64,000 bases of DNA from contig NZ_CANMDS010000002.1 in NCBI RefSeq assembly GCF_947496725.1, positions 496,001 to 560,000 on the forward strand, written 5' to 3'. A program made the position numbers and the translations under genes. How positions within the stretch are numbered: position 1 is the first letter of the stretch; every line of letters begins with the position of its first letter. Shown here piece after piece: positions 2,239-61,615 of the stretch. The notes under the pieces were generated by a model. The model was not told the DNA's origin, did not search any database, and was given only the letters and a program-made list of their open reading frames with translations. This DNA comes from an uncultured Dokdonia sp. (lineage in GTDB: Bacteria > Bacteroidota > Bacteroidia > Flavobacteriales > Flavobacteriaceae).

Positions 2239-3186
2239 ATGGACAGAAGAAAATTTATACAAAAAGGAGCTCTCACGGGTTCCTTTTTAGGTTTAGGGAC
2301 TGTAGGTATACACGCTATGGATGCGGTTGTGAGAGATTCCGCTTTCGCGAAAGCGGAAACAGAACCACACACTTTTAATCTCAACTATGCCCCGCACATA
2401 GGGATGTTTAAAGAGCTCGCTGGCGAAAATGTTATAGATCAGCTCAACTTTATGGCAGATCAAGGCTTTACCGCCTTTGAAGATAATGAGATGCGCAATC
2501 GCCCCATTGACGAACAAGAAGCAATAGCAGAGGTGATGCGTAGGCGTGGTCTTACTATGGGCGTTTTTGTGGCTCATAAAATACACTGGACAAAGCCAAA
2601 CCTAGCGAGCGGAAAACAAGAATGGCGTGAGGAGTTTCTGGCAGATATTAAGAGCTCTATTGAGGTAGCAAAACGTGTAAATGCAAAATGGATGACCGTG
2701 GTACCTGGTCACGTAGACTTGCGTCAGAATATTGATTTTCAGACGGCAAATGTAGTAGAGAGCCTTAGACAAGCAAGCGCCTTACTAGAACCGCACGGCA
2801 TTGTGATGGTGCTGGAGCCACTCAATTTTAGAAATCACCCAGGACTCTTTTTATCTAAGTCACCACAAGCATATCAAATTTGTAAAGCTGTAAATAGTTC
2901 GTCGTGCAAGATTCTTTTTGACATCTACCACCAGCAAATTCAAGAAGGAAATTTAATCCCAAATATAGAACAATGCTGGGACGAGATTGCTTATTTCCAG
3001 ATAGGAGATAACCCAGGACGCAATGAGCCTACCTCTGGTGAGATTAACTACAAAAATGTATTTAAATACATACACAGTCGTGGTTTCAAAGGAGTTTTAG
3101 GAATGGAACACGGTAACAGTATAGAAGGAAAAGAGGGCGAGCAGCGTGTGATAGATGCGTATGTGGAGAGTGATCAGTTTTTGTAA
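2239..3186 (+). CDS. Sugar phosphate isomerase/epimerase, hydroxypyruvate isomerase-like (Tat exported)
   Basis: TIM-barrel protein of the xylose-isomerase-like superfamily, 315 aa. MDRRKFIQKGALTGSFLG is a twin-arginine signal. The blocks VLEPLNFRNHPGLFL, LFDIYHQQI, IGDNPGRNEPTSGEINY and GMEHG resemble hydroxypyruvate isomerase and supply the usual Glu/Asp/His/Glu metal ligands. It follows the dehydrogenase subunits by 4 bases and ends the cluster, so it probably acts on the same sugar or oxidised sugar in the periplasm. Whether it truly isomerises hydroxypyruvate is doubtful given the export signal. Just after the signal, a copy of the 14-bp palindrome (2341-2354) encodes A-F-A-K-A between the signal and the mature domain. 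Confidence 0.85.
   Translation: MDRRKFIQKGALTGSFLGLGTVGIHAMDAVVRDSAFAKAETEPHTFNLNYAPHIGMFKELAGENVIDQLNFMADQGFTAFEDNEMRNRPIDEQEAIAEVMRRRGLTMGVFVAHKIHWTKPNLASGKQEWREEFLADIKSSIEVAKRVNAKWMTVVPGHVDLRQNIDFQTANVVESLRQASALLEPHGIVMVLEPLNFRNHPGLFLSKSPQAYQICKAVNSSSCKILFDIYHQQIQEGNLIPNIEQCWDEIAYFQIGDNPGRNEPTSGEINYKNVFKYIHSRGFKGVLGMEHGNSIEGKEGEQRVIDAYVESDQFL
2341..2354. repeat. Palindrome copy 1 (coding)
   Basis: Exact GCTTTCGCGAAAGC inside the hydroxypyruvate isomerase-like gene, encoding AFAKA. The arms extend symmetrically as TTCC...GGAA, giving a 22-bp palindrome. Confidence 0.97.
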
Positions 3187-3225
3187 ATCTGTATATTTAA
3201 TAATAATACAATCAGAATCTCTTCG

Positions 3226-3260
3226 TTTGATAACGGAGTGTGCAGGATTTACTACTTTTA
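3226..3260 (+). promoter_or_regulatory. Putative Bacteroidota promoter of ftsX
   Basis: TTTG at 3226-3229 and TACTTTTA at 3253-3260 are 23 bases apart, close to the Bacteroidota -33 (TTTG) / -7 (TAnnTTTG) pattern. The gap to the ATG is 16 bases. Predicted from sequence only. Confidence 0.45.
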
Positions 3261-3276
3261 CTCAAAACCCTAGCAA

Positions 3277-4155
3277 ATGAGTTCATCTTTTGAAAAATAC
3301 CAGAAAAGACGATTAATTACCTCCTATTTTTCGGTGGTGATTAGTATTGCTTTGGTTCTTTTTCTATTGGGGATTTTGGGGTTACTTGTCCTCAATACCA
3401 AGAAGGTAGCAGATTATTTTAAGGAGACTATTGCCGTAGGTGTTTATTTTAAAGACACTGCAAAAGATGTGGAGATGAAACAGCTAGAGAAAACACTTTC
3501 TCTTGCAGCGTACACAAAATCTATAAAATTTGTTTCAAAAGAAGAGGCTGCGGCAGCTCATAGTGAAGCCTTGGGAGAAAACTTTGTAGATTACCTTGGT
3601 GAGAACCCGCTTCAAAATAGCATAGACTTATACCTCAATGCAGATTATGTATCTGCAGAGAAGGTAGAAGAAATAGCAAACGAGATTGCATCAAAAGACT
3701 TTGTAGAAGAAGTAACTTATGATAAACCTCTCATATCATTGCTTAACGATAATATCAAAAAAATAAGCCTGTGGATACTCATTATCTCTGGCATATTTAC
3801 GTTTATCGCAGTACTGCTTATCAATAGCTCTATACGACTATCTGTGTATGCAAAGCGTTTTACAATAAAGACAATGCAAATGGTAGGTGCGACAAAACGT
3901 TTTATAAGACGTCCCTTTGTATGGAAGAGTGTGCGCCTAGGCATTATAGGTGCGCTTATCGCTATAGCAGGTATGGCAGGAGTGCTGTATTACGCAAATA
4001 AAGCATTTCCGCAACTCACATTACTAGATGACCCGCTTGTACTAGGAGCATTATTTGGAGGTGTGTTTTTAATGGGAATACTCATTACTTGGTTTAGTAC
4101 CTTTCTGGCAACACAACGTTTCTTAAATTTGCGCACAGACGAGCTATACTACTAG
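3277..4155 (+). CDS. ftsX: Cell division protein FtsX (ABC transporter permease-like)
   Basis: Membrane partner of the FtsE ATPase; in other bacteria the complex activates peptidoglycan hydrolases at the septum. The 292-aa protein has the FtsX layout: a cytoplasmic N-terminus (SSSFEKYQKRRL), a first membrane helix at about 20-42, a periplasmic domain (about 43-160), then three membrane helices, with the MKTMQMVGATKRFIRRPF-like cytoplasmic loop near residue 205 that contacts FtsE. ftsE is not nearby in this window. It heads a same-strand set with DUF3098, uppP and truB, an order I recall as conserved in Flavobacteriia. Confidence 0.93.
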   Translation: MSSSFEKYQKRRLITSYFSVVISIALVLFLLGILGLLVLNTKKVADYFKETIAVGVYFKDTAKDVEMKQLEKTLSLAAYTKSIKFVSKEEAAAAHSEALGENFVDYLGENPLQNSIDLYLNADYVSAEKVEEIANEIASKDFVEEVTYDKPLISLLNDNIKKISLWILIISGIFTFIAVLLINSSIRLSVYAKRFTIKTMQMVGATKRFIRRPFVWKSVRLGIIGALIAIAGMAGVLYYANKAFPQLTLLDDPLVLGALFGGVFLMGILITWFSTFLATQRFLNLRTDELYY

Positions 4156-4438: not shown

Positions 4439-4441
4439 CAC

Positions 4442-5274: not shown

Positions 5275-6000
5275 ATGTCTAAGATAACGAGCCTTACAGA
5301 TCAAGATTTTAGAGATGGCCAAGTGCTTATTTTTGACAAGCCTCTTGAGTGGACTTCCTTCCAGCTAGTAAACAAAGTGCGCTGGCTTATACGTAAGAAC
5401 CGAAACATAAAAAAGATCAAAGTAGGGCACGCAGGCACACTAGACCCGCTAGCTACTGGTCTTATGATTATATGTACAGGTAAGTTTACAAAGCGTCTAC
5501 ACGAGTTTATGGGTCAGGAGAAGGAATATACTGGCACCATCACTCTAGGTGGCACCACGCCTAGTTATGACCTGGAGACAGCCATAGATAAAGAATACCC
5601 TACCGAGCATATCACTGAGGAGGATATATACGCTTTCGCGAAAGCGTATCAAGGAAAAATAATGCAGCGTCCACCTGTATTTTCGGCACTGAAGAAAGAA
5701 GGGAAGCGTCTGTATGAGTTTGCAAGAGCAGGTGAGGAAGTAGAAATTCCGAAGCGAGAGATACACATCTCATCTTTTGAAATCACACGCATTGAAATGC
5801 CCGAAGTAGATTTTAAAGTAAGCTGCAGTAAAGGTACTTATATACGATCACTAGCGTTCGATTTTGGAGAAGGGCTTAAAAGTGGTGCCCACCTTACGGC
5901 GCTTAGAAGAACCAAAATAGGCGACTATAGCGTAGATAATGCACACCTACTAGATGACTTTATAAGAGACATTACGCAGAGCAATCCTGCCGATATCTAG
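5275..6000 (+). CDS. truB: tRNA pseudouridine(55) synthase TruB
   Basis: Makes pseudouridine-55 in the T-loop of tRNAs. The 241-aa protein has the catalytic motif GHAGTLDPLATG with Asp57, the N-terminal block LIFDKPLEWTSFQLVNKVR, and the SKGTYIRSLAFDFGE motif near residue 190. It lacks a long C-terminal PUA domain, as is common in short TruB forms. A palindrome copy (5632-5645) encodes AFAKA within a helix just before QGKIMQRPPVFSALK, at a position where other TruBs vary. Last gene of the ftsX operon; a hairpin follows. Confidence 0.95.
   Translation: MSKITSLTDQDFRDGQVLIFDKPLEWTSFQLVNKVRWLIRKNRNIKKIKVGHAGTLDPLATGLMIICTGKFTKRLHEFMGQEKEYTGTITLGGTTPSYDLETAIDKEYPTEHITEEDIYAFAKAYQGKIMQRPPVFSALKKEGKRLYEFARAGEEVEIPKREIHISSFEITRIEMPEVDFKVSCSKGTYIRSLAFDFGEGLKSGAHLTALRRTKIGDYSVDNAHLLDDFIRDITQSNPADI
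5632..5645. repeat. Palindrome copy 2 (coding, truB)
   Basis: Exact GCTTTCGCGAAAGC with symmetric TAC...GTA arms, encoding AFAKA near residue 120 of TruB. Confidence 0.97.
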
Positions 6001-8040: not shown

Positions 8041-8697
8041 CTATTTAAGATATTCTAAAAAGGTTTCTCTAGGTATTTCGGCGGCGCCTAGGCTTGCGAG
8101 ATGGTCTGTGTACATCTGGCAGTCTATGAGCTTGTATCCGTTTTTAGTAAGCTTTCGCGAAAGCGTAATAAATCCCACTTTACTAGCATTACTTACAGTG
8201 GCAAACATACTCTCGCCACAAAAAACACCTTTATCTTGCAAGTCTATGCCATACAGACCTCCTACGAGTTTGTCTTCATACCAGACTTCTACAGAGATGG
8301 CATAGCCTAGCTGGTGAAGTCTTAGGTAAGCTTCTACGACGTCATTTGTAATCCAGGTGCCTTGCTGTCCATCTCTTTTAATACGTTTACAGGCGAGTAT
8401 AACTTCTAGAAAATTTTGATTATAAGTAACTGTAAAAGGGTTGTCGCGCAGTAATTTGCGCATAGATTTTGATACGTGTACATCTTGCGGAGCCACTACC
8501 ATTCTAGGGTCTGGTGTCCACCATAAAATGGGTTGCCCCTCATTATACCAAGGAAAAATCCCAGATCTATAGGCAAGTAATAACCAGTCTGGGGTAAGAT
8601 CACCACCTACCATAAGGAGACCCTCTTCGTCTGCCAGATGGTGGTCTGGAAACCAAGGATCATTAGAAAACATATGGTGATCTGGTAGTGGTAGCAC
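8041..8697 (-). CDS. aat: Leucyl/phenylalanyl-tRNA--protein transferase
   Basis: Attaches Leu or Phe to the N-terminus of proteins bearing Arg or Lys, marking them for N-end-rule degradation. The 218-aa protein has the family blocks FPDHHLADEEGLLMVGGDLTPDWLLLAYRSGIFPWY, WWTPDPRMVV, and the catalytic-domain GGLYGIDLQDKGVFCGESMF. The start is a GTG at 8697; the next ATG would cut into the conserved N-terminus. A palindrome copy at 8151-8164 encodes LSRK (TLSRKL) near the C-terminus, replacing the usual helix there. Confidence 0.94.
   Translation of the reverse strand: MLPLPDHHMFSNDPWFPDHHLADEEGLLMVGGDLTPDWLLLAYRSGIFPWYNEGQPILWWTPDPRMVVAPQDVHVSKSMRKLLRDNPFTVTYNQNFLEVILACKRIKRDGQQGTWITNDVVEAYLRLHQLGYAISVEVWYEDKLVGGLYGIDLQDKGVFCGESMFATVSNASKVGFITLSRKLTKNGYKLIDCQMYTDHLASLGAAEIPRETFLEYLK
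8151..8164. repeat. Palindrome copy 3 (coding, aat)
   Basis: Exact GCTTTCGCGAAAGC. Read on the minus strand it gives L-S-R-K. The left arm does not extend the symmetry. Confidence 0.97.
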
Positions 8698-10475: not shown

Positions 10476-10489
10476 GCTTTCGCGAAAGC
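10476..10489. repeat. Palindrome copy 4 (intergenic)
   Basis: Exact GCTTTCGCGAAAGC upstream of the flavin reductase gene (minus) and of the 39-codon gene (plus). Confidence 0.97.
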
Positions 10490-12070: not shown

Positions 12071-12084
12071 GCTTTCGCGAAAGC
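12071..12084. repeat. Palindrome copy 5 (intergenic)
   Basis: Exact GCTTTCGCGAAAGC in the 61-bp gap between the SPFH gene and the zinc-ribbon gene, 19 bases before the ATG of the latter. Confidence 0.97.
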
Positions 12085-13255: not shown

Positions 13256-13269
13256 GCTTTCGCGAAAGC
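13256..13269. repeat. Palindrome copy 6 (intergenic, upstream of osmC)
   Basis: Exact GCTTTCGCGAAAGC with CC...GG arms. It covers the place of the -33 element relative to the -7 box at 13280. Confidence 0.97.
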
Positions 13270-15428: not shown

Positions 15429-15717
15429 ATTGGTTAGGTTTAAATGGTTCGTGTGACTTAAAGTTAGTTAAAATTTTAACATAACAGCATTTTATGCATT
15501 GATTGTTAGAAATTTATGTATTTCCTCGACGATTTTAATGGGTTTGTCGAGCATTTTTGGGAGTTCAATCCTTGTAAAACACATTGTTTAGTGTGTTTTG
15601 CTGATTTTCAAATGTTTACAAAAAGATAACTTCATAGGCTGTAAGTGGCAAGCCCTTATCTTAGTAAAATTACGGTGGAATGAGATTACGCTTTCGCGAA
15701 AGCGTAAAAAGAAAGAA
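15429..15717. other. 289-bp gap upstream of the OmpA gene
   Basis: No convincing gene. It holds a palindrome copy (15690) and two weak inverted repeats: CTCGAC/GTCGAG at 15525-15551 and AAAACACA/TGTGTTTT at 15576-15599. It should contain the OmpA promoter and the end of the MFS transcript. Confidence 0.6.
15690..15703. repeat. Palindrome copy 7 (intergenic)
   Basis: Exact GCTTTCGCGAAAGC with TTAC...GTAA arms and an A-tract on its right side, 15 bases beyond the 3' end of the MFS gene. Confidence 0.97.
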
Positions 15718-16933: not shown

Positions 16934-16947
16934 GCTTTCGCGAAAGC
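16934..16947. repeat. Palindrome copy 8 (intergenic)
   Basis: Exact GCTTTCGCGAAAGC upstream of the MFS gene, followed on the right by ATAAAAAAA and then the terminator of the aldehyde dehydrogenase. Confidence 0.97.
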
Positions 16948-19320: not shown

Positions 19321-19334
19321 GCTTTCGCGAAAGC
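19321..19334. repeat. Palindrome copy 9 (intergenic, upstream of nbaC)
   Basis: Exact GCTTTCGCGAAAGC with TAC...GTA arms and A8 on its right, next to the CAP-gene terminator. Confidence 0.97.
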
Positions 19335-22579: not shown

Positions 22580-22593
22580 GCTTTCGCGAAAGC
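22580..22593. repeat. Palindrome copy 10 (intergenic, divergent gap)
   Basis: Exact GCTTTCGCGAAAGC between the CBS gene and the M28 peptidase gene. It covers the -33 position of the latter. Confidence 0.97.
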
Positions 22594-25884: not shown

Positions 25885-25898
25885 GCTTTCGCGAAAGC
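25885..25898. repeat. Palindrome copy 11 (convergent gap)
   Basis: Exact GCTTTCGCGAAAGC followed by ATAAAAAAAA, directly beside the shared terminator of the SDR and M13 genes. Confidence 0.97.
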
Positions 25899-28119: not shown

Positions 28120-31100
28120 TTAGTGGCGTATCAGCTTTTTGGTTATTTGCTTTGTGCCTGTATTGAGTTTTAGTAAATATAAACCAGTGGCAAATGAGCT
28201 CATATCTAATGGATAGGCAGTCTCACCTGCAGCGGTTGTAATAGGTTTTACCACTACCTTACCTAAGATGTCATAAACTTCTATAGTAAGCGGAGTTCCT
28301 TGAGACCAATTAATATTAAAAATACCGTTAGATGGGTTTGGGTGTATACTAAGCCCTGAAACCGTTACCTCATCTATAGCAAGTGGGTCAAGACCTATAT
28401 GTAAATCATCTAAGAGCACTCCTTCTCTCACAGTGTTTTGATCAGAGTGGAAAACAAATCTAAAGATCATACTGGTCTCTGCGGCAAAGGCGGTAAGGTC
28501 ATAGCTATACTCGTTAAGAGAGGTGTCATTGTCACCTGTCCACTGTGCTCCTGGGCAGTTAAAGCAATTGTTACCAGGTAATGTGTCACTGTTATACCAG
28601 TTAGGATCATTTGCTGTTCCTAATATATTCCAAGTAACGCCATTATCTACGGTATACTCCATATACATTATATCCCAATCATTTTCTAGCTCAAAAGCCA
28701 TCTTGAAAGAGATTTGAGGAACGTCTAGTGCAGAAATATCATAACATTTAGTAGTTAAAAACTCTTTGATATTATCACCGTGATCACCGCTTAGATTAGT
28801 AGCATATACATTCTCTCCAGATGCTGCTTGGTTTAGAGCTGGGCCTGTAGGGATTCCTCTTTGCCAAGTTGTACTTGATGTATCACAATTACCTCCGTTG
28901 CTGTTTTCAGTTAGTATAAGAAGGGTGTCTTCTTCTGATTCAAAATCATTTATAAGATCGCCTTCACCTACTGCATTTACAGCTAGAGTTGTTCTTGAGT
29001 CATTATTATCAATTAACTGATCACCATCTAGTATAACCTCTGCGACCAGTTCATACGTACCAGTAGGAAGTCCCAGCACAGGTAACTCAACAGTGGTAGA
29101 TTCTTGAGATGCGAGCGACCCAGACCAATCTATTGTGTTTGAGATACCGCCAGCCATATAGTTTATAGTTGCAGCTGTAATCACATCTGTACCGCTATTT
29201 ATAAGAGTAAGCTCTGTAGGGATTTCTTCACAAGAGAGTGCTTGATTACCTAGAGGAACAAGTGAGGTGGTTGCTATGTCTAGCGCTATAGGCTCTGTAT
29301 CTATGTTAGTCTGCCAGATACCACGACCGTAGGTTGCTGCAGTTAGAATTCCGTTTGACTCATTAATATCTAAGTCACGTACAGCAGTATTAGGTAATCC
29401 ATTATCAAAGGTTTCCCAATCGTTTGTAATATCATCATACCTCCATACCCCTAGTGCGGTACCTAAGTAAAGTGGATTTTCAGAGTGCACATTTTGGTGT
29501 TTAATTACAAGTTTTGGCACTTCTGGTAATGACCCAGTAATTTCAGTTGCAACAATATCTGCTCCTGTAATTGTACCTTGATATACTCTACCTGATGTTC
29601 CAGCAGTTACGATATATATTGTAGAGCTATCTCCATATTTCACTTCAAGTGAAGAGATGTTATTTGAAAAATTAGTCACGAAATCAAAATTCTCGCCACT
29701 GTCAGAACTTTTGTATAGTTGATTATCAACTGCGACATACATTATCTCTGCATTGTTTGGATCTGTTTCAAGGTGGTCAATACGAGTCCCAAATGATGAC
29801 GAACGTTGTACCCAACTATTTGAACAAAAATCTAGCTCGTATACACTAGTATATCCTGCATATAGCTTACTGTCTTTTGCAAAGGCAAGAGGCGTTATCC
29901 AGTTACCAGTTTCTGGCGAGTTGAAAGCTCCTGCTAGTGATGCTCCACCATTGTTTGAAAAATATGGTCCACCACCACTTTGTATAAATCCATATACTCT
30001 ACTTGGGTCATTTGGATCAAATACATTTTCCATTCCATCTGCTCCGTAGTAGTTTTGCCATTGCTCATTAAGGCGAGCATAACCTCCGTTATCTTGTAAT
30101 CCTCCAGAAATAAGAGAGGCATCTGTTGCAGCTACATCTATTCTATAAAATTGTCCTATTGCTAGACCGTCTGTAATACTTGTAAAACTAGCGCCACCAT
30201 CTGTAGATGTATAAATACCACCATCACTACCGCAATAAAGTGTCCCGTTTATAAAGCGCAAATTATGAATATCTGCGTGGGTATATGCAGCTTGATTAGG
30301 AGAATCCCAACTGTTTAATTGAGTGAAGTTTGCACCACCATTAGTAGATTTCCACACGTTGAGTATTCCTGTATAAATTTCATCTTCATTTGTGTCTGAA
30401 ACTGCAAAAGCCATATCAAACCAGGCCTGCGTACTCTGGAAAATATCTTGACTTCCAGTAAAAGTCTCTACAAATGTATCTGCACTGTCTGTAGATTTAA
30501 ATATAGAACCAGACCCAAAACCAGTGTCAGATTTAAATACGTATAACACTTCTGGGTTTGCTGGGGTTACATCTAGTACGAGTCTGGCAGCTCCCGTTAT
30601 CACGCCAGCAGAGACATTTGTCCAAGTCTCACCTGCATCTGTAGATCTATAAACTCTATTTGTAGTAGCAGCATATACTATATCAGAGCTTCCTGGTTTT
30701 ACTTTTAAATCATCAAAGTTACCTGTGATTTTATTTTCCCAATTGAGGCCGCTGTCTATCGTTTTATATACACCCTCACTAGTCGCGAGCCATAGTGTCT
30801 TATTATCTGCAGGATCAAAGTAAATCTCATTCATTGTTAAAGGAGAATTACTTTCATTAAGACCTGTGGTGTTCCAAGTAACACCTCCATCTGTAGATTT
30901 CATAACACCTACACTTGTAGAGTCACCGGCATCATCATCACCAGTTGCAATGTATATGATATTACTATCGGTAGGATCAATAGCAATTCCAGACACTCCT
31001 ATTTGTGGTAATTGATCTGTAAGAGGTGTCCACGTGGCACCTGTGTCTGTAGACTTCCAGATACCTCCAGCTGGAGCACCTATATAAATAACAGCAGGGT

Positions 31101-31521: not shown

Positions 31522-31660
31522 TGTAGTTTTATTAGGCAATAAATATAATACAGGAATTGTATTCTACACAATTATTCACTTATAAAACAGCTAAAAAACT
31601 TAAAAAATATCAGTAAAAGGATTAAAACACTGCGGTTTTGACAATAAGCAGGTGGTTTGA

Positions 31661-32858: not shown

Positions 32859-32872
32859 GCTTTCGCGAAAGC
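32859..32872. repeat. Palindrome copy 12 (divergent gap, upstream of tdh)
   Basis: Exact GCTTTCGCGAAAGC with TAC...GTA arms, 20 bases before the tdh ATG. Confidence 0.97.
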
Positions 32873-37271: not shown

Positions 37272-38402
37272 CTAGTTCTTAAATGGAGTATGTTGTTTGT
37301 ATTCTGTCATTTTAATCTGACGCACAAAAGGTTTAAATAACATATTTGCAACTGTACGGCGGTGTTTTATATAACATCTAAGCTGTTCTGGCGTTGCACC
37401 TAGAGTACTTTTAATTTCAGATGCTGTTCTGCCTAAGTTGATTTCTTTCACCCCTAATGAGAGGCCTTGTCTTATATAATCATTAAGCATTCTTTGGTAG
37501 ATGGCATCTGTTTTATTAAAATCATAATCAAGCCCAATAAAATGTGCTTCTAGCACATCATTCACAATAAAAGCTGTTGAGAAGCCTACAAGCTCTCCAT
37601 CTTTACTGTAAGCAGTAAACCTTACTTGATCCTTAAAGGCCTCTTTAAGTAACGCATATGTCTCGATAGCTATAGGAACAGTATTAAAAACAGCTTTAGA
37701 TACTACGTTGTTATAAAGGCCTTGTAGCTTGTGTATGTTGTCTCTTATTTGTGTTGCTGTAAATGATGTACTAATAAGATGTTTACTTAACGTATCTGCA
37801 CGATTTACTTTTACTCTATATTTTGATTTGAGTGAAGCTTTATAGGTTTCAAAATCTTGCCACCTCACGGCAAGTCTCATATTAGGCTCTACCGTAAAAG
37901 ATTGAAAGTGTTCTTTCTCAGCAATGCTGGCAGAGGCATCTTCTTGGGCATTAAAATCTTTAAGAAAAAAGATGCGTGGTTTTTTTGGTGTGGAGAGCTT
38001 TTTTAGCTTTCGCGAAAGCGTATTGTAAATTCTTCTTTTATCGCTTCCAGTTTTTACATAGAGGCCATATGCTCCACTCAGAAAGATGTTTCCACATACT
38101 AGTATATGTGTTTTCTTACCACTCAAATAGCACTGTAAGCTACGAGCTAGTTGCTGGGTGAGAGGAAGCTTTTCTGTAGCAGTCTCAAGAGAGATATCTA
38201 TAGCTTGAGTTATGGCAAGCGCTACTGGCTTGTTGTCAAGGGCGATGATGAGATAGGTGTAGGTGATGAGCTTGTTTGCTCTCTCAAATGCCTGTAAAAA
38301 GGGTTTTGAAAAATAGATAGTTTCTTCACAATCAAGCGCTTTAAACACTTGATTATCTATATCGTTTATACTGCTGTAAGTTGTACAGGTGTAGCTAGGC
38401 AC
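37272..38402 (-). CDS. GNAT/FemAB-like acyltransferase
   Basis: 376-aa protein with two halves. The C-terminal half (about 185-330) resembles the BioF2-like/peptidogalycan GNAT domain: LKSKYRVKVNRAD, LVGFSTAFIVNDVLEAHFIGLDYDF, and LGVKEINLGRTASEIKSTLGATPEQLRCYI. The N-terminal half is a diverged GNAT-like domain (about 25-150), in which a palindrome copy (38006-38019) encodes LSRK in TLSRKLKKL. It overlaps the upstream transporter gene by 8 bases, so the two are cotranscribed. Substrate unknown. Confidence 0.7.
   Translation of the reverse strand: MPSYTCTTYSSINDIDNQVFKALDCEETIYFSKPFLQAFERANKLITYTYLIIALDNKPVALAITQAIDISLETATEKLPLTQQLARSLQCYLSGKKTHILVCGNIFLSGAYGLYVKTGSDKRRIYNTLSRKLKKLSTPKKPRIFFLKDFNAQEDASASIAEKEHFQSFTVEPNMRLAVRWQDFETYKASLKSKYRVKVNRADTLSKHLISTSFTATQIRDNIHKLQGLYNNVVSKAVFNTVPIAIETYALLKEAFKDQVRFTAYSKDGELVGFSTAFIVNDVLEAHFIGLDYDFNKTDAIYQRMLNDYIRQGLSLGVKEINLGRTASEIKSTLGATPEQLRCYIKHRRTVANMLFKPFVRQIKMTEYKQHTPFKN
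38006..38019. repeat. Palindrome copy 13 (coding)
   Basis: Exact GCTTTCGCGAAAGC inside the GNAT-like gene. On the minus strand it encodes LSRK, in the same peptide TLSRKL as in aat. Confidence 0.97.
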
Positions 38403-40200: not shown

Positions 40201-40912
40201 GATAACTTTCCGCTTCGTTCCAAGGTATAGTAACCACCATATTTTCCGAATATAATGCGTCTACCTCTGCATAATTAAGAATAACACCGTCTTCGGTAAA
40301 TCCTATTTCTTGTAGGTTTTCATTAAATGTAAGTACATTAAATAAATGCTCTTGCTGCGGGTATTCTTTTGTGAAGTACGCTTTCGCGAAAGCGTAAAAA
40401 TCTTCTGTAAATAGTGCTTCTTTAGATAATAGCTCTCCGTTTTGTGGATTTAGGTTGAGGTAGTTTGCTGTGTCATACCCACTTGCGCCACCAGAAAATT
40501 GATAGGTATAGTGCACAATAGAGAGTAAATTATTAGTCCCATATGAGAGGGCTGTTTCTATTTGAATTTCGTGAGCATCAGAGAGCTCAGTAGTTTCGGG
40601 GTATGAAATTTGAGACTCATTAATATATAAGTCTATAGCATCTGTTATGCTAAGGTCTGGCACTTTAGAAGCATTATACAAAGTGGAAGTTGTCTTATCA
40701 AGAATCCACTTATTTGCAATGTCTTTTACTGTCTCTGGTGAAGAGAAAGTAATAATCTCAATATCTATATCTGGACAGGGTTGCGCGGCGCATATGTTTA
40801 TATCACTAGTTGTATAGTGAGTGCTGTTTGTTTCATAAACAATTTCTTTCTCACAACTTACAGTGGTGATAAAAAGAATAATAAGCAGCAGGGGAGCCAG
40901 ATGTTTTTTCAT
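40190..40912 (-). CDS. DUF3298/DUF4163-type lipoprotein
   Basis: 240-aa lipoprotein (signal MKKHLAPLLLIILFITTVSC, Cys20). The mature part has an N-terminal DUF4163-like region (about 45-140) and a C-terminal DUF3298-like region (about 140-235, YTYQFSGGASGYDTANYLNLNPQNGELLSKEALF ... VTIPWNEAESYL), as in the extracytoplasmic part of RsiV. A palindrome copy encodes AFAKA in the helix FYAFAKAYFTKEY. Function unknown. Confidence 0.85.
   Translation of the reverse strand: MKKHLAPLLLIILFITTVSCEKEIVYETNSTHYTTSDINICAAQPCPDIDIEIITFSSPETVKDIANKWILDKTTSTLYNASKVPDLSITDAIDLYINESQISYPETTELSDAHEIQIETALSYGTNNLLSIVHYTYQFSGGASGYDTANYLNLNPQNGELLSKEALFTEDFYAFAKAYFTKEYPQQEHLFNVLTFNENLQEIGFTEDGVILNYAEVDALYSENMVVTIPWNEAESYLTF
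40380..40393. repeat. Palindrome copy 14 (coding)
   Basis: Exact GCTTTCGCGAAAGC with TAC...GTA arms inside the DUF3298 lipoprotein gene, encoding AFAKA on the minus strand. Confidence 0.97.
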
Positions 40913-43187: not shown

Positions 43188-43201
43188 GCTTTCGCGAAAG
43201 C
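43188..43201. repeat. Palindrome copy 15 (convergent gap)
   Basis: Exact GCTTTCGCGAAAGC with TTCC left and GTAA right arms, between the ends of metB and the barrel gene. Confidence 0.97.
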
Positions 43202-45691: not shown

Positions 45692-45705
45692 GCTTTCGCG
45701 AAAGC
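45692..45705. repeat. Palindrome copy 16 (intergenic)
   Basis: Exact GCTTTCGCGAAAGC with ATTAC...GTAAT arms (24-bp palindrome), between gdhA and porZ. Confidence 0.97.
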
Positions 45706-45810: not shown

Positions 45811-48090
45811 GTGAAGACGCGTTTTTTCTTATTGATTCTTCTCACATCATTTACAGTGATGTCGCAAGACTTTTCAGAAAACTGGACAGCACATTACTCA
45901 TATAACCGAGTGTCTGATATGACCTCTGGTAATGATAGAGTATACGTGGCCTCAGAAAATGCTGTTTTTATATATTATACACTTGACGAGTCTATAGAGA
46001 CTAGAACCACCGTAAATGGTCTTTCTGGTAATGTAATATCTGCTATTTATTATAGTGAAGGTTTTGACACACTCTTTATAGGGTATGAAAATGGTGTTAT
46101 AGATGTTGTAGTGGGAAATAGCACAGATGTTCTTACTGTGGTAGATATTTTTAATAAACCTGCTATCCCACCAGACCGTAAGCGCATTAATCATTTTGAA
46201 GAGTATAATGGCTTTGTTTATATATCCTCTAGTTTTGGTATTTCCTTATTTGAGCTTAGTCAGTTAGAGTTTGACGATTCTTATTTTATAGGTGATGGCG
46301 GTGGCTTACTAGATATAGGTGGTGTAGCCATACAAGAGCCATACATCTATGCAGCATCTATAGACGGGGGTGTACGTAGAGCGCTTGTTGCAAATGATAA
46401 TATTATAGATTTTAATAACTGGGAGACTATACGTACTGGATCTTACCAGGAGATTGTAAGTTTTAATGATGACCTTTACTTACAAGAAGACAACCAGATT
46501 ATTATCTCTCAAAATGGAGTAGATTATAGCATTTTTGAATCATACCCCGAGACGGTAATAGACATTAGGCCTAATGAAGATTTCTTATCTGTAACATATA
46601 ACGCTACCGTCTTGCTCTATGATGAAAATCAAAATCTAGCTCAAACCTATGGTGCGATAGAAGGTTTTACAACAAGATATACTACTACATTAACACTTCA
46701 AGGAGAAATCTTTGTTGGGACACTGGGTTCTGGTGTGGCGCGATTTTCTACTGATAATATTTCTGATGTAGCAAGGCTACTTCCTAATGGTCCGCTAGAA
46801 AATGAACATTTTGATGTAGCAGCAAGTGCTGGAAACGTGTGGTCTGTTTTTGGAGATTTTGATGTTTCGTACAATCCTTTCCCACTCAAAACACAGGGAA
46901 TAAGTAGATATGAAGAGGGTTTGGGGTGGAGTTTTATAAACCCTGGAGATCTTTTTGGGGCGACAAATTTTGTGCACGTTGCTATAAACCCCTTAGACCC
47001 TACACAGCTGTATGCAAGTTCTTTTAATGGAGGTTTAGTTGAGGTGCTAGATGCAACGCCTAGTATTTTATATGATGAAAATAATAGTTCGTTATCTCCT
47101 GTTTCATCAACTATAGATGATGTACGTGTAAACGGAGGAGCGTTTGATGCTGAGGGTAATTTCTGGGTGACTAATGCAAGATCACCCCTAGGCTTGCATA
47201 AGGTAAGTCCAGCAGGACAATTTTCTTCTTTTAACACAGAGGAGATTCTAGCCGGAAGTGATGCAAATCTTGATGCCCTTGCAATAGGTCTTGATGGCGT
47301 TGTGTTTTTTGGGACAGATACCAGAGGTGTGATTGCTTATAATCCCGCTACTAATGAGTTTGCAAGAATTGCGGGAGAAGATGGAGCAGCAAATTTACCT
47401 ATAGATGATATACGCTCGCTAGCAATAGATAGAAACGGGGCCTTATGGATTGGAACACGATTAGGTCTTAGAGTACTATTTGGCCCATCACAAATTTTTG
47501 AAAACCCACAGATAAGCGCAAATGCAATTATATTTTTAGAGGATGGTCTAGCTCAAGAATTGCTTAATGACCAAGTGATAACAGATATTATTGTAGATGG
47601 AGCAAATAATAAGTGGCTAGCCACTGCAGACTCTGGTGTGTTTTACGTGAGTCCTAATGGTCAAGAAACTATTTTTCACTTCACTACAGATAACTCACCA
47701 CTGCCGTCTAACACGGTACAATCTATTGCGATAGATCCAGAGACGGGGAGTGTTTACTTTGGTACCGTAAGAGGTATGGTATCTTTTGATGGTACTTCTA
47801 CCGCTCCTGCAGATAATCTGGAGAATGTACTTATATATCCTAACCCTGTGAGACCAGGCTTTAATGGTAACGTGCGTATAGAAGGACTTACCGCTCGTAC
47901 TAATGTAAAAATTACAGACCTAGTAGGTAACCTCGTTTATGAAGAAAATACCACAGGTGGCAGCATAGAGTGGGATACAACAGCCTTTGGCCGTCATAAG
48001 GTGGCTTCTGGGGTATACTTATTACTCATTACCGGCCCTCCAGAAGAAATGCAAGAGACTACCATAGAAAAAGTAATGATCATACGATAA
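45811..48090 (+). CDS. porZ: PorZ-like type IX secretion protein with C-terminal sorting domain
   Basis: Component of the cell-surface attachment complex (PorU-PorV-PorQ-PorZ) that links A-LPS to T9SS cargo. The 759-aa protein has a signal peptide (MKTRFFLLILLTSFTVMSQ), two N-terminal beta-propellers of the two-component-regulator type (WTAHYSYNRVSDMTSGNDRVYVASENAVFIY at about 25; DRNGALWIGTRLGLRVLFGPSQ at about 545; DGANNKWLATADSGVFYVSP), and a Por sorting domain (LIYPNPVRPGFNGNVRIEG ... KVMIIR). The start is GTG. Its TAA overlaps the ATG of recO by one base, a link I recall as common in Flavobacteriia. Confidence 0.87.
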   Translation: MKTRFFLLILLTSFTVMSQDFSENWTAHYSYNRVSDMTSGNDRVYVASENAVFIYYTLDESIETRTTVNGLSGNVISAIYYSEGFDTLFIGYENGVIDVVVGNSTDVLTVVDIFNKPAIPPDRKRINHFEEYNGFVYISSSFGISLFELSQLEFDDSYFIGDGGGLLDIGGVAIQEPYIYAASIDGGVRRALVANDNIIDFNNWETIRTGSYQEIVSFNDDLYLQEDNQIIISQNGVDYSIFESYPETVIDIRPNEDFLSVTYNATVLLYDENQNLAQTYGAIEGFTTRYTTTLTLQGEIFVGTLGSGVARFSTDNISDVARLLPNGPLENEHFDVAASAGNVWSVFGDFDVSYNPFPLKTQGISRYEEGLGWSFINPGDLFGATNFVHVAINPLDPTQLYASSFNGGLVEVLDATPSILYDENNSSLSPVSSTIDDVRVNGGAFDAEGNFWVTNARSPLGLHKVSPAGQFSSFNTEEILAGSDANLDALAIGLDGVVFFGTDTRGVIAYNPATNEFARIAGEDGAANLPIDDIRSLAIDRNGALWIGTRLGLRVLFGPSQIFENPQISANAIIFLEDGLAQELLNDQVITDIIVDGANNKWLATADSGVFYVSPNGQETIFHFTTDNSPLPSNTVQSIAIDPETGSVYFGTVRGMVSFDGTSTAPADNLENVLIYPNPVRPGFNGNVRIEGLTARTNVKITDLVGNLVYEENTTGGSIEWDTTAFGRHKVASGVYLLLITGPPEEMQETTIEKVMIIR

Positions 48091-48809: not shown

Positions 48810-51221
48810 ATGCGCATACTTTTATCCCTATTTCTGCTGCTGTCTTTTACTTCTTACTCGCAGGTCATTACAGTACTAGATGTAGACACGCGTGAGCCTA
48901 TAATAGGGGTTGCTATCTTTAATAATGACAAGAGTAAAAGTGCACTCACAGATTTTGATGGTAAGGCAGATGTGACCGCTTTCGCGAAAGCGGAAACCCT
49001 TTATTTTCAAGAAGTCGCACATAAGGACGCTCAGTATACAAAAGCACAAGTAGCAGCATTTTCTAACCGAATTTTTCTCAAACAAAAAGATAACCAGCTT
49101 ACAGAAATTGTGCTATCTGCAAGCAAATTTGCACAAAGCCGAAAGAATGTACCTCAGAAAATAGTAGGCCTCACCTCAAAAGATATTATAAGGGCAAACC
49201 CGCAAACAGCGGCAGATTTACTAGAGACAAGTGGGTCTGTTTTTGTTCAAAAAAGTCAGCAGGGTGGAGGTAGTCCCCTCATACGAGGATTCTCTACAAA
49301 TAGGCTACTCATCACATTAGACGGTGTGAGATTTAACACGGCAATATTTAGAGGAGGAAACGTGCAAAACGTGATATCTATTGATCCTTTTATTATAAAC
49401 CGCACAGAAGTTTTATTAGGTCCAGGTTCGGTAATTTATGGTAGTGACGCTGTAGGTGGAGTGATGAATTTTTATACAAAACAGCCCAAACTATCTTTTT
49501 CAGACAGCCTTACGGTAACAGGTACAGCTGTAGCCAGAGTAAATACGGCCAATAATGAGAAGACTGGTCACTTTGATATCACACTGGGTAAAAGGCAGTG
49601 GTCTTTCCTCACAAGTGCTAGTTACTCAGATTATGATAACCAGCGACAAGGGAAGCACGGCCCAGATGATTACCTGCGTTCTGAATATGTACAGACTATA
49701 GATGGGGTAGATGTAGCTGTCACAAATGATGACCCACTTGTACAAGTAGGCTCTGCTTTTAACTCACTTAATCTAATGCAAAAAGTGAGATATACGCCTA
49801 ATGAAAAGTGGGATTTTAACCTTGGGGTGATTTATGCTGCCACATCAGATTATGATCGTTATGATAGATTAACGAGAAAACGTGATGGCGAATTTAGATC
49901 GGCAGAGTGGTTTTATGGTCCACAAAAGTGGTTTATGACTAACCTCCAGGTTAATAAAGAAGGTAATGGTCAGTACTACGATAGAGTGATAGGTACCTTT
50001 ACTTACCAGAATTCTAAAGAAAGTAGAAATGACCGGGATTTTAACGCGACAGACTTCTTTGAGACAGATGAGAGTGTAGATGCAATATCTGTAGGTTTAG
50101 ATTTTGTTAAGAAGCTTAAGACTAAGAGAAACAAAATATTTTATGGCCTTGAGTATATACATAACAAAGTACACTCAGATGGTCAAGTAACAGACATTAC
50201 TACGGGTGACATTACAAACACAGCGTCTAGATATCCAGATGGCTCTACCTGGCAATCGCTAGCAGCTTATGCCAGTGCACAAATAGAGCTTTCTGATAAC
50301 ACACATTTACAAACGGGATTACGTTATAATCATATCTTACTAGCAGCAGACTTTTCTGATAATAATGAGTTTTTTGCATTTCCTTTTCAAAACGCAGACT
50401 TGAGTACGGGTAATCTCACTGGAAGTTTTGGAGTGACTCACGAGGTGTCAAAAAAAGTAAGTGTTAAGGCAAATGTAGGTACAGCTTTTAGAGCACCTAA
50501 TATAGATGACGTGGGTAAAATTTTTGATAGCGAGCCGGGTTCTGTTGTTGTGCCTAACCCTGATCTTAAATCTGAATATGCCTATAATGGAGAGCTGGGC
50601 GTGAGTCTTAATTTTTCTAACGTACTACAGTTTGATGTAAACGGGTATTATACACTGCTGGAGAACGCGCTGGTGCGCCGTGATTTTAATCTTAATGGTG
50701 TTACAGAGATAGAGTATCAAGGTGAGACAAGTAATGTGCAAGCTATTCAAAACGCGTCTAAGGCAGAGGTATATGGTGTAGAGATAGGTGCAAATGCAAA
50801 CCTCACAAAGCATTTAAAGCTCACAAGCCAGTTTAATTACACGAGTGGAGTAGAGCAAGAAGAAGATGGGAGTTATGTGCCTTTTAGACACGTGGCACCA
50901 CTCTTTGGAAATGGACATTTAATCTGGGCAAAAGATAAGTGGACACTTGATGCCTCTGTGGCATATAGCGGTAAGTTTGATTTTGATGAGCTTGCTCCTA
51001 GCCAGCAAAGTAACTCACACCTTTATGCACTAGACGGAGATGGTAATCCCTTCTCACCTAGCTGGTATGACTTGAGTATTGCGAGTAGATATGTACTTTC
51101 AGATAGTTGGTCTTTTACAGCAAATCTGGAGAATATTACAGACCAGCGATACCGTACGTATTCTTCTGGAATAGCTGCTGCGGGAAGAAATTTAATACTT
51201 GCAGCGACTTATAATTTTTAA
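48810..51221 (+). CDS. TonB-dependent receptor
   Basis: 803-aa outer-membrane receptor. After a signal peptide (MRILLSLFLLLSFTSYSQ) come a short carboxypeptidase-regulatory-like domain (about 18-85) and a plug domain (about 105-225, PQTAADLLETSGSVFVQKSQQ, SPLIRGFSTNRLLITLDGVRFN). A 22-strand barrel follows, ending AAGRNLILAATYNF. The plug resembles heme/hemoglobin-type receptors, but no heme-uptake genes are adjacent, so the substrate is open. A palindrome copy (48978-48991) encodes AFAKA in the regulatory domain. Confidence 0.88.
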   Translation: MRILLSLFLLLSFTSYSQVITVLDVDTREPIIGVAIFNNDKSKSALTDFDGKADVTAFAKAETLYFQEVAHKDAQYTKAQVAAFSNRIFLKQKDNQLTEIVLSASKFAQSRKNVPQKIVGLTSKDIIRANPQTAADLLETSGSVFVQKSQQGGGSPLIRGFSTNRLLITLDGVRFNTAIFRGGNVQNVISIDPFIINRTEVLLGPGSVIYGSDAVGGVMNFYTKQPKLSFSDSLTVTGTAVARVNTANNEKTGHFDITLGKRQWSFLTSASYSDYDNQRQGKHGPDDYLRSEYVQTIDGVDVAVTNDDPLVQVGSAFNSLNLMQKVRYTPNEKWDFNLGVIYAATSDYDRYDRLTRKRDGEFRSAEWFYGPQKWFMTNLQVNKEGNGQYYDRVIGTFTYQNSKESRNDRDFNATDFFETDESVDAISVGLDFVKKLKTKRNKIFYGLEYIHNKVHSDGQVTDITTGDITNTASRYPDGSTWQSLAAYASAQIELSDNTHLQTGLRYNHILLAADFSDNNEFFAFPFQNADLSTGNLTGSFGVTHEVSKKVSVKANVGTAFRAPNIDDVGKIFDSEPGSVVVPNPDLKSEYAYNGELGVSLNFSNVLQFDVNGYYTLLENALVRRDFNLNGVTEIEYQGETSNVQAIQNASKAEVYGVEIGANANLTKHLKLTSQFNYTSGVEQEEDGSYVPFRHVAPLFGNGHLIWAKDKWTLDASVAYSGKFDFDELAPSQQSNSHLYALDGDGNPFSPSWYDLSIASRYVLSDSWSFTANLENITDQRYRTYSSGIAAAGRNLILAATYNF
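48978..48991. repeat. Palindrome copy 17 (coding)
   Basis: Exact GCTTTCGCGAAAGC with CC...GG arms inside the TonB receptor gene, encoding AFAKA. Confidence 0.97.
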
Positions 51222-51227: not shown

Positions 51228-51241
51228 GCTTTCGTGAAAGC
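51228..51241. repeat. Palindrome variant 18 (convergent gap)
   Basis: GCTTTCGTGAAAGC, one base off in the centre, with TTAC...GTAA arms and A8 on the right. It lies between the ends of the receptor and rsmI genes. Confidence 0.95.
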
Positions 51242-54314: not shown

Positions 54315-55415
54315 ATGGCTATAACACGTTTAGAAATAGATCTCAGTGCATTAAGACACAACTACGCATATATGCGCAGTAAAGTAACGCCAGGTGTAAA
54401 AATGATGGCCGTGGTAAAGGCATTTGCATATGGTAGCGATGCACAAGTGATTGCTCAAGAGTTAGAAAAACTCAAAGTAGATTACTTTGCGGTGGCATAC
54501 GTTTCAGAAGGTGTTGCGCTGAGAGATGCAGGAGTTACAACTCCTATTTTAGTACTGCACCCACAACCAGATAATTTTGAAACGCTGCTAGAGCGCTGTT
54601 TGGAGCCTAATATTTATAGCAGGAGAATGCTGGAAATGTTTTCCGCTTTCGCGAAAGCAAAAAAGCAAACCGCATATCCCATTCATCTTAAGTTTAATAC
54701 AGGTCTTAATAGGTTAGGGTTTACAGCAGAAGATGTACCTTGGATTGTCAAAAACGTACTCAAATCCGAGCATCTAAAGGTGAAATCCTTATTCTCACAC
54801 CTAGCGGCTAGTGAAGATCTTGATGAGCGCGACTTTACTTTACATCAAATTGCCCAGTTTGATGAAATAGCGCAAGAAATAAAGACCCAATTAGGTTATG
54901 CACCATTTATGCATATGACCAATACTTCTGGGATTATTAATTATCCCAGTGCTCACTATGATTGTGTGCGCACAGGTATAGGATTATACGGATATGGTAA
55001 TGCACCAGAAGAGACGGCAAACTTAAAACCAGTTGCTCGTCTTAAGTCTGTAATCTCACAAAAACATATTATCAACCCAGGTGATAGTGTAGGTTATAAC
55101 AGAGCCCTTGTGGCAAAAGAGAAGATGGTAACCGCTACAATACCTATAGGTCACGCAGATGGTATTTCTAGAGCCTACGGCAATGGCGTGGGTTACGTAA
55201 CAATTGCGGGAGAGAAAGCTCCTTTTGTTGGGAACGTCTGTATGGATATGATTATGGTAAACGTTACAAACATTGCCTGTAAGGAGGGAGATGATGTAGA
55301 GATTTTTGGAACACAAACAGGTGCAGATGCTTTAGCTCAAGAAGTGCAGTCTATCTCTTACGAATTACTTACAATGGTTGGTCAGCGTGTAAAACGTGTC
55401 GTTCTCCGAGACTAG
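54315..55415 (+). CDS. alr: Alanine racemase
   Basis: PLP enzyme interconverting L- and D-alanine for peptidoglycan. The 366-aa protein has the PLP lysine Lys35 in VVKAFAYGSD, FNTGLNRLGF, MHMTNTSGIINYPSAHYDCVRTGIGLYGY, the catalytic tyrosine in SVGYNRALVAKEKM, and GNVCMDMIMVNVT. The usual VKANAYGHG is changed to VKAFAYGSD. A palindrome copy encodes AFAKA at about residues 111-115, in a surface helix before the HLKFNTGLNRLG strand. Confidence 0.94.
   Translation: MAITRLEIDLSALRHNYAYMRSKVTPGVKMMAVVKAFAYGSDAQVIAQELEKLKVDYFAVAYVSEGVALRDAGVTTPILVLHPQPDNFETLLERCLEPNIYSRRMLEMFSAFAKAKKQTAYPIHLKFNTGLNRLGFTAEDVPWIVKNVLKSEHLKVKSLFSHLAASEDLDERDFTLHQIAQFDEIAQEIKTQLGYAPFMHMTNTSGIINYPSAHYDCVRTGIGLYGYGNAPEETANLKPVARLKSVISQKHIINPGDSVGYNRALVAKEKMVTATIPIGHADGISRAYGNGVGYVTIAGEKAPFVGNVCMDMIMVNVTNIACKEGDDVEIFGTQTGADALAQEVQSISYELLTMVGQRVKRVVLRD
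54645..54658. repeat. Palindrome copy 19 (coding, alr)
   Basis: Exact GCTTTCGCGAAAGC inside alr, encoding AFAKA. Confidence 0.97.
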
Positions 55416-56089: not shown

Positions 56090-56103
56090 GTTTTCGCGAA
56101 AGC
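56090..56103. repeat. Palindrome variant 20 (intergenic, upstream of asd)
   Basis: GTTTTCGCGAAAGC, one base off in the left arm, 38 bases before the asd ATG. Confidence 0.9.
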
Positions 56104-58332: not shown

Positions 58333-58346
58333 GCTTTCGCGAAAGC
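58333..58346. repeat. Palindrome copy 21 (intergenic, upstream of prolyl oligopeptidase)
   Basis: Exact GCTTTCGCGAAAGC covering the -33 position of the next gene. Confidence 0.97.
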
Positions 58347-60559: not shown

Positions 60560-60586
60560 CTAGCATAATTAAGACATAAAATACAG

Positions 60587-61588
60587 ATGATGAGTAAACC
60601 CACATTTGGAGTTATAGGAGGAGGAAGCTGGGCGACCGCTATTGTAAAAATGCTATGTGAAAACCTAGAGACTGTAGGCTGGTATATGCGCAGTAACTAC
60701 GCACTTGAGCACATCAAACGCGAAGAGCATAACCCAAGTTACCTAAGCTCTGTAGAGTTTAAGCCAGAACAACTTAAGTTAAGTAATGATATAAACGAGA
60801 TTGTTGCTTATGCAGATGTAGTCATCTTTGCAGTGCCATCTGCTTTTATAGGCGGTGAGCTAGCAAAGCTCACGGCTTCTTTAGAAAATAAACTCATTAT
60901 TTCTGCTATAAAAGGTATAATGCCAGAGAGTGGTAAGCTGGTGGGTGATCACTTTCACAATGTATATAACATACCTTTTGAAAATATAGGCGTTATTGCT
61001 GGCCCTTGTCACGCAGAGGAGGTGGCGCTTGAGCGCTTGTCATATCTTACAATAGCTTGTGCAGATAAAGAAAATGCAAAGCTGGTGGCAAAAAACCTAT
61101 CTAGTGATTATATAAAATGTACCACTAGTGATGACATTATCGGGATTGAGTATGCTGCTACGCTCAAAAATATTTATGCCATCGCGGCTGGTATTGCACA
61201 CGGATTAGGCTACGGAGATAACTTTCAAGCGTTGTTAATGAGTAACGCTATACGTGAGATTAAACGTTATGTAAAACGTGCTCATAAGATGAAGAGAGAC
61301 ATTAATGGCTCTGCTTATTTAGGAGATTTATTAGTGACGGGTTATTCTGTCTTTAGCCGTAACAGAATGTTCGGTAATATGATAGGGAAGGGCTACACGG
61401 TAAAAAGCGCACAGATGGAAATGTCTATGATAGCCGAAGGCTATTATGCAGCAAAAAGTGCTTTAGAACTTAATGAGTCTCGCGAAAAACAAGCTAAAAT
61501 TCCAATTATCGAGGCCGTGCATTGTATTCTCTATAAAGGAAAAGACCCTAAGAAGGTATTTAAAAAGCTTACAGAGAAGCTTAATTAA
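60587..61588 (+). CDS. gpsA: Glycerol-3-phosphate dehydrogenase [NAD(P)+]
   Basis: Makes sn-glycerol 3-phosphate for phospholipid synthesis. The 333-aa protein has the loop GVIGGGSWATAIVKML, ISAIKGIMPESGKLVGDHF, IAGPCHAEEVAL, the catalytic Lys in EYAATLKNIYAIAAGIAHGLGYGDN, and RNRMFGNMIGKGY. The ATG at 60590 is an alternative start one codon in. A palindrome copy follows its stop by 13 bases. Confidence 0.95.
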   Translation: MMSKPTFGVIGGGSWATAIVKMLCENLETVGWYMRSNYALEHIKREEHNPSYLSSVEFKPEQLKLSNDINEIVAYADVVIFAVPSAFIGGELAKLTASLENKLIISAIKGIMPESGKLVGDHFHNVYNIPFENIGVIAGPCHAEEVALERLSYLTIACADKENAKLVAKNLSSDYIKCTTSDDIIGIEYAATLKNIYAIAAGIAHGLGYGDNFQALLMSNAIREIKRYVKRAHKMKRDINGSAYLGDLLVTGYSVFSRNRMFGNMIGKGYTVKSAQMEMSMIAEGYYAAKSALELNESREKQAKIPIIEAVHCILYKGKDPKKVFKKLTEKLN

Positions 61589-61601
61589 GTTGTGGTGTTA
61601 C

Positions 61602-61615
61602 GCTTTCGCGAAAGC
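61602..61615. repeat. Palindrome copy 22 (convergent gap)
   Basis: Exact GCTTTCGCGAAAGC followed by ATAAAAAG, between the ends of gpsA and the minus-strand hypothetical gene. Confidence 0.97.

Follow-up and report, generated by a model that had tools for sequence, protein, structure and literature searches.

Why should a bacterial chromosome carry the same 14-base palindrome every few kilobases? The question is raised by a stretch of DNA from an uncultured Dokdonia sp. (contig NZ_CANMDS010000002.1, positions 496,001–560,000; hereafter the window, i.e., the whole 64-kb stretch analyzed), which holds 20 exact copies of the palindromic 14-mer GCTTTCGCGAAAGC and two one-base variants of it. The answer favored here, and considered fairly likely, is that GCTTTCGCGAAAGC (the word) serves a few Flavobacteriaceae-type genera of Bacteroidota as a DNA uptake sequence (DUS).

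The palindrome is a real genome-wide motif. The window contains 22 matches to it at up to two mismatches, and shuffles keeping the dinucleotide composition yield 0.08 on average (maximum 1), which bears out the original prediction, made from the window alone, that chance would give well under one copy; the coordinates it listed for the 20 exact sites and for the variants at 51228 and 56090 were all confirmed. In the draft genome of the same organism (3,291,590 bases), 905 exact copies were found, i.e., approximately one per 3.6 kb along the chromosome, vs. 0 for the reversed-pattern control, so the chance that the excess would vanish outside the window can be set aside. Strong genome-wide over-representation is a trait of the DUS and of the uptake signal sequences (USS), and so is the scarcity of near-misses: in an 864-kb sample of the own genome (800 kb taken from contig C1 and the 64-kb window on contig C2), sequences with 0, 1, 2, and 3 mismatches number 242, 14, 35, and 44, respectively. 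Palindromes with shuffled half-sites (up to 200 of them, in a 464-kb sample) gave on average 0, 0.055, and 0.9 matches at 0, 1, and 2 mismatches. Presumably, something site-specific recognizes GCTTTCGCGAAAGC. To that extent the original list of candidates (a binding protein, a methylase, or a chromosome-organizing motif) stands, but a methylase and a purely organizing site are less favored for the reasons given below. The literature search revealed no text with the 14-mer, most subscription journals being outside its reach, and no relevant paper, as judged by title, on its 10-mer core TTTCGCGAAA; the papers listed on flavobacterial palindromes, uptake sequences, natural transformation, and uptake-sequence spacing, with subscription journals mostly uncovered, gave no description of GCTTTCGCGAAAGC.

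The anatomy of the word is that of a core with dispensable symmetry. Among the 279 TTTCGCGAAA cores in the 864-kb sample, 242 have GC arms on both sides, 37 on one side, and 0 on none. Since every core bears an arm, the unit consists of TTTCGCGAAA plus one GC arm or two; since 37 of the 279 cores are one-armed, perfect symmetry is not obligatory, but the unit occurs preferentially as the perfect palindrome. The consensus reads TTAC-GCTTTCGCGAAAGC-GTAA, with TTAC adjoining the core, and is embedded in weak symmetric flanks of ~20–30 bases per side, C-poor and G/T-rich, whose composition is alike at genic (112) and intergenic (130) sites. The initial impression that nothing beyond the core and a few adjoining bases is common to the copies was hence nearly right, the weak flank being what it missed. 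The three innermost flank bases display a mild correlation between the sides (r 0.22), and no stem-like covariation was found in the outer flanks; an anti-correlation of the two outer flanks was suspected, tested, and dropped.

The copies are spread along the chromosome more evenly than chance would have it. In the first 400 kb, the coefficient of variation (CV) of spacing is 0.50 vs. 0.94–1.06 in four null models, including models that preserve the bias toward gaps between genes (0 of 2000 simulations in each). Over 800 kb, which include one 19.6-kb gap, the CV is 0.64; for cores, with three gaps of at least 9 kb left out, it amounts to 0.52 vs. 0.99 under uniform placement. Even spacing is thus another trait held in common with the DUS and USS. 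A stronger, lattice-like hyper-regularity was also considered and rejected: the Fano factor of 0.07 at 40 kb, obtained from 400 kb, rose to ~0.3 in 800 kb, no better than a renewal process. The 19.6-kb stretch (C1:525,933-545,538; L297 and L298) contains zero exact copies of GCTTTCGCGAAAGC and encodes a type I methylase, a UvrD helicase, a large serine recombinase, and a protein with weak HSDR_N and ATPase matches, as in a defence-type island; the recombinase, methylase, and helicase point to acquired DNA. The second long gap (~C1:716-739 kb), with an O-antigen ligase and a Schlafen-type helicase, is interrupted by relaxed core sites. The absence of the word from acquired DNA is judged on these two regions, the 19.6-kb island and the weaker second one.

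With regard to genes, whose positions were taken from a simple hexamer caller and not from annotation, the 464-kb sample comprises 69 genic and 71 intergenic sites, the gaps making up 9.3% of the bases. The intergenic sites fall into tandem, divergent, and convergent gaps as 41, 16, and 14 vs. ~46, 18, and 7 expected by length. Within genes, 42 of the 69 copies are read in frame as Ala-Phe-Ala-Lys-Ala, and 25 occupy the initial 20% of the gene. Signal peptidase cleavage obeys the AXA rule; Ala-Phe-Ala-Lys-Ala gives a signal-peptidase-like AXA, and GCTTTCGCGAAAGC was encountered in signal peptides at L051:7431, L052:17944, and L355:13389.

Copies rich enough to be called genome-wide are confined to a few genera. 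In the family sample of 299 genomes, 61 hold any copy, but only five hold 408–905 of them, namely the own genome, G206, G242, G010, and G190 (three genus codes), and the other 294 hold 0–19 (the next highest counts being 19, 17, and 16). In a draw from the whole phylum, any copy was found in 16 of 296 genomes, with a maximum of 4 apart from the own genome. Among the matches listed for at least 80 relatives of one protein, the sole locus with copies was L235 of a Nonlabens metagenome-assembled genome (MAG), with two exact copies in 11.6 kb; the genus code g11 is 92–93% identical to it in that protein and is probably Nonlabens. The rpoB tree unites the own genus with G190 (98/100) and does not resolve the placement of g11; a single clade of all five word-rich genomes is not rejected on rpoB by the approximately unbiased (AU) test (p-AU 0.35). 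Viral contigs carry mostly single copies among the matches listed and were not used.

How the copies change over time is seen from alignments. The same-genus genome G206 is alignable to 37.9% of the window, including 7 of the 22 sites, and retains the 10-base core at 6 of the 7 at 68–77% identity, two of them in gapped alignments. A second source is the low-count genomes of the family (1–19 copies; 56 of 299), in nine of which clustered copies were inspected, 14 stretches in total. Eleven stretches (L051-L057 and L059-L062) share DNA, at most 97% identical over at least 1 kb, across seven genomes of different genera (G078, G215, G087, G101, G201, G012, and G111); L058, L063, and L064 are without it. 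The shared DNA includes a pair of words 933 bases apart, and L051, read gene by gene, represents a metal-efflux island with CusA/CusC-like proteins, P-type ATPases, and a multicopper oxidase (names assigned by eye). GCTTTCGCGAAAGC may mark the donor lineage of these stretches.

The word-spanning alignments from 32 query copies form 95 non-independent rows, of which 62 retain the word, 24 contain ungapped substitutions (single-base changes in 9 of them), and 9 are gapped. Substitution is therefore mostly in place (24 of the 33 non-identical island alignments), a pattern compatible with a DUS or USS; all four non-identical pairs in a separate comparison were ungapped as well. One signal peptide carries two word copies shifted by several bases. 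Apparently, GCTTTCGCGAAAGC is not a mobile element: the original claim that the sites are not copies of a longer one agrees both with the ungapped alignments and with the lack of longer shared sequence. The copies in the 14 stretches comprise 32 exact, six one-mismatch, and two two-mismatch forms. The inner core is changed in five of those six, whereas 10 of the 14 one-mismatch forms in the own genome are changed in the outer two bases; small as the numbers are, this difference is what selection or drive within the home clade, combined with decay elsewhere, might produce.

Among known systems, the DUS of the Neisseriaceae is non-palindromic and is read by a type IV pilus subunit; work by Frye in 2013 reportedly described DUS dialects among the genera of this family. 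GCTTTCGCGAAAGC differs in being palindromic, in belonging to another phylum, and in its candidate receptor, an outer-membrane protein plus a lipoprotein. Uptake words have been described for the Neisseriaceae and Pasteurellaceae (PMC7811141). In Neisseria, they occupy permissive yet conserved sites, are absent from recently acquired genes, and are spaced so as to match recombination tracts (PMC2397512); GCTTTCGCGAAAGC is likewise a short genome-wide word at permissive conserved sites, and it is missing from the one presumably acquired 19.6-kb island. The USS of the Pasteurellaceae features 1,465 core copies with weaker flanking segments (PMC7811141) and even spacing, with 1471 exact vs. 764 singly mismatched copies and a suggested origin by point mutation (PMC1939737). 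Its likeness to GCTTTCGCGAAAGC lies in the core with weaker flanks, the even spacing, and the few single mismatches, and the differences in its asymmetric 9-base core, AT tracts, and spacing of ~1 kb, as opposed to a 14-base palindrome with G/T-rich flanks every ~3.6 kb. It is this agreement with published traits (PMC2397512, PMC1939737, PMC7811141) that suggests a role in uptake, the defining property of a DUS being the preferred import of DNA that bears it.

The possible hardware is indicated by Riemerella, placed in the Flavobacteriaceae by the papers concerned. In this genus, transposon mutants have shown natural transformation to depend on ComEC, DprA, ComF, and RecA and on four further proteins; two of the four are encoded side by side, an outer-membrane protein containing a CarboxypepD_reg domain and a DUF5689 protein (PMC8459023). 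R. columbina prefers its own DNA, and the 7–10-base k-mer table published for Riemerella consists, in the portion examined, of A-rich words, none like GCTTTCGCGAAAGC (PMC7965970). The own genome possesses ComEC and DprA and, by domains and order, the same surface pair: the gene of the CarboxypepD_reg outer-membrane protein (L355:10431-13208, minus strand) beside that of the DUF5689 lipoprotein (L355:8998-10404, minus strand). From domains and gene order, the pair is inferred to be orthologous to that of Riemerella (PMC8459023). It adjoins a gene for a leader-bearing Exo_endo_phos_3 nuclease (L355:13344-14396), whose leader carries the exact GCTTTCGCGAAAGC at L355:13389, read TAFAKAQ; this nuclease is a possible DNA-processing partner. 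A similar nuclease was observed in 13 of 29 receptor loci, one locus end being read.

We infer that the word enhances uptake and that the CarboxypepD_reg/DUF5689 pair reads it. In the proposed mechanism, a surface receptor, most likely this outer-membrane protein with its adjacent lipoprotein, would bind free word-bearing DNA, and ComEC, DprA, and RecA would bring the bound DNA inside and recombine it. If word-bearing fragments are imported more often, the word would accumulate and be repaired at permissive positions until there is approximately one per importable fragment. Accumulation by preferred import would space the copies evenly, keep their fidelity high, and leave newly acquired DNA without them.

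Still, ComEC, DprA, and the surface pair are equally present in the tested word-poor relatives. The pair being near-universal in the family, its mere presence proves nothing, and only its variation is informative. In the receptor tree of 29 genomes, one clade (100/99) unites 18 genomes, all of them word-bearing: five with GCTTTCGCGAAAGC and 13 with a second word, described below. Six word-poor genomes fall outside it. The genus g46, with the second word in 60 and 107 copies, is the rpoB sister of the word-poor G029 (100/99); g46 carries a receptor of the 18-genome type, and G029 has neither that receptor nor the word. Placement of the g46 receptor with its rpoB clade was rejected (p-AU 0.003, for a group named after the trees had been seen). 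Each tree comprises 29 of the 30 genomes chosen, as G243 lacked an rpoB hit and G202 a receptor hit. Across the 299 genomes, 16 of the 44 with a strong receptor match (at least 1150 bits) were rich in the second word (at least 25 copies and at least three times the control) vs. 9 of the 250 others, the five first-word genomes being excluded, in a hand tally with ancestry uncontrolled and thresholds chosen after the data were seen. As for structure, the predicted model of a lipoprotein homologue (L203; predicted local distance difference test score, pLDDT, 65) has a C-terminal part resembling the jelly-rolls of MAM, CBM, and gingipain adhesin domains; the model of an outer-membrane homologue (pLDDT 36) is not interpretable, and searches of PDB sequences with the own receptor pair gave nothing usable.

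The second word, the asymmetric TTTCCGAAG, came from the genus g77, where it occurs 20 times vs. 0.21 expected in 80 kb of G076 and 13 times vs. 0.67 expected in 80 kb of G287. It has TTTC and CGAA in common with GCTTTCGCGAAAGC. A family-wide scan for ATTTCCGAAGA on both strands revealed additional genera with many copies and gave 181, 146, 135, 107, and 92 copies in the top genomes, with 4–11 in the reversed controls; the counts in the first-word genomes G000 (the own genome), G010, G242, G206, and G190 were 0, 0, 0, 5, and 2 (controls 9, 8, 4, 0, and 2). Likewise, TTCCGAAG is in excess in five of 80 named loci among the matches listed (Subsaximicrobium, Psychroserpens, Aestuariivivens, and two MAG loci) and below expectation in the first-word genomes (9 vs. 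24.5). Probably, then, there is a Bacteroidota uptake-sequence system with dialects. The fuller picture, a set of uptake "languages" in which each clade has its word (GCTTTCGCGAAAGC or TTTCCGAAG), outer-membrane/DUF5689 readers take the place of the type IV pilus, and horizontal replacement of the receptor switches the word, is tentative and somewhat short of probable. Two further observations concern other words. In Mesonia sp. K7, a palindrome built on the same plan, GCTTCCGCGGAAGC, occurs twice in 21.5 kb (L245:3097 and 16281) and is possibly a third word. In G190 (L065-L068 and L287-L290), GTTACCGTGA, GTATAGGTGA, and GATCACTAC are over-represented beside the palindrome; these could be repeats or another signal.

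Several points weigh against uptake as the function of GCTTTCGCGAAAGC. Three of the eight window-site alignments are gapped (two of the three retain the core). DUF5689 was found in 27 of 28 genomes, and the outer-membrane protein in 29 of 30 and in 285 of 299. Five second-word genomes lie outside the 18-genome receptor clade, the group submitted to the AU test was named with the trees in view, and word count was part of the basis for choosing the 30 tree genomes. The independent-pairs test (28 rows, G202 left out) had too few pairs, with ~2 agreeing and 0 opposing (p 0.5). The lipoprotein tree (28 of the 29 genomes; G279 was dropped, no lipoprotein being recognized in its locus) has poor resolution and leaves the word-bearing genomes ungrouped. 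No clear dispersed word was detected in ten receptor-similar, word-poor genomes inspected over 40 kb each. The second word is spaced less evenly (CV 1.18 and 0.71), being uneven in G076. To our knowledge, no uptake word is palindromic, and the literature search gave no report of competence in this organism. Finally, many recent DUS in Neisseria seem to have been born by recombination and not by point mutation, so the predominance of substitutions is not specific to uptake (PMC2397512).

The main rival, itself unlikely, is a chromosome-organizing site, i.e., regular palindromes needed by a cytoplasmic nucleoid-associated, SMC-loading, or segregation factor. A dimeric binder would suit the palindromic symmetry, and the even spacing, the indifference of location to transcription, the conservation, and the absence from the island all fit. 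Such a site alone predicts neither the second word in relatives nor the correspondence, partial as it is, between word and outer-membrane receptor from species to species, and no candidate binder is in hand, the genome not having been scanned for one. Furthermore, known organizing sites (matS, parS, and Noc) occur in smaller numbers, in particular regions, or with more degenerate sequences, those of ParB/parS and Noc being a few sites clustered near the origin with the consensus TGTTTCACGTGAAACA or a relative. The 905 dispersed copies rule out parS and Noc sites specifically, as the original prediction had it for parS, and by eye the core and the parS consensus are out of register by one base. 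Uptake accommodates more of the evidence, since it covers the restriction to a few rich genera, the even spacing over genes and gaps, the second dialect, and the partial receptor tracking together.

Quite improbable is an epigenetic or restriction mark, with a methylase, nuclease, or break-processing complex reading the word as a tag of self vs. non-self. The high fidelity, the absence from the acquired island, and the C-poor, G/T-rich strand bias on both flanks would be in keeping with it, but a single arm suffices, word-bearing metal-efflux islands persist in word-poor genera, and we know of no methylase target with 14 specified bases and tolerance of a missing arm. Less credible still is a role in transcription, as a terminator or operator. 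The 14-mer could fold back into a short hairpin, and convergent gaps show a mild excess (14 vs. ~7 expected); on the other side, 69 of 140 sites are genic and mostly in one frame (42 of 69), divergent and tandem gaps are used approximately as expected, and the outer flanks lack stem covariation. Intrinsic terminators in particular were rejected, as neither placement after genes nor covarying stem arms were found. A copy-and-insert element similar to the repetitive extragenic palindromic (REP) sequences, already disfavored, would account for the many copies, the palindromic core, and the 9 of 33 non-identical island alignments gapped at the word, but hardly for the 24 ungapped ones (9 with single-base changes), the lack of a longer common sequence, or the signal peptide with two copies several bases apart in register; no inserted copies of a longer element were seen, so mobile palindromes of the REP type or the bacterial interspersed mosaic element type were discarded. 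Least plausible of all is mutational or codon-usage bias without selection: the dominance of one frame (AFAKA) indicates that coding tolerance shapes placement in genes, but half of the sites lie outside coding sequence, one-mismatch forms are few (14 vs. 242 exact), and spacing is even.

A different kind of comparison is offered by HIP1 of cyanobacteria, GCGATCGC, a highly iterated palindrome of 8 bases in genes and gaps with an unsettled function. GCTTTCGCGAAAGC is likewise highly iterated, palindromic, and present in genes and gaps; it differs in sequence, length, and phylum, and HIP1 was accordingly dismissed on sequence, as it had been from the window at the outset.

If GCTTTCGCGAAAGC is indeed an uptake sequence, sequence-biased gene exchange would have arisen once more, on different receptor hardware. 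The word would then offer a direct readout of DNA-exchange partners and mark horizontally moved islands, e.g., the metal-efflux islands, and the question "drive or benefit?" would become testable in a new lineage. Should the word instead be a chromosome-organizing site, the literature search turned up no account of that either.

In the window itself, several exact copies lie in genes: 2341-2354 in an AP_endonuc_2-like gene (core retained in G206), 5632-5645 within truB, 8151-8164 within the gene of Leu/Phe-tRNA-protein transferase, 38006-38019 within a gene with a weak acetyltransferase match, 40380-40393 within a gene, and 54645-54658 within the alanine racemase gene (identical in G206). Another, 48978-48991, is close to the 5' end of a gene for a TonB-dependent receptor. 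Divergent genes flank 10476-10489, 22580-22593 (identical in G206), and 32859-32872, and convergent ones 25885-25898, 43188-43201, and 61602-61615 (identical in G206). Tandem gaps harbor 12071-12084 (gapped and not retained in G190), 13256-13269 (identical in G206), 15690-15703, 16934-16947, 19321-19334 (one mismatch in G206), 45692-45705 (upstream of porZ), and 58333-58346 (upstream of a prolyl oligopeptidase gene). The one-base variants are 51228-51241, with the center CGTG, and 56090-56103, changed in the outer arm, i.e., one-armed with the core retained, where G206 has the full motif. The window also encodes PorZ of the type IX secretion system (45811-48090) and a protein with a sorting domain of the same system (28120-31539).

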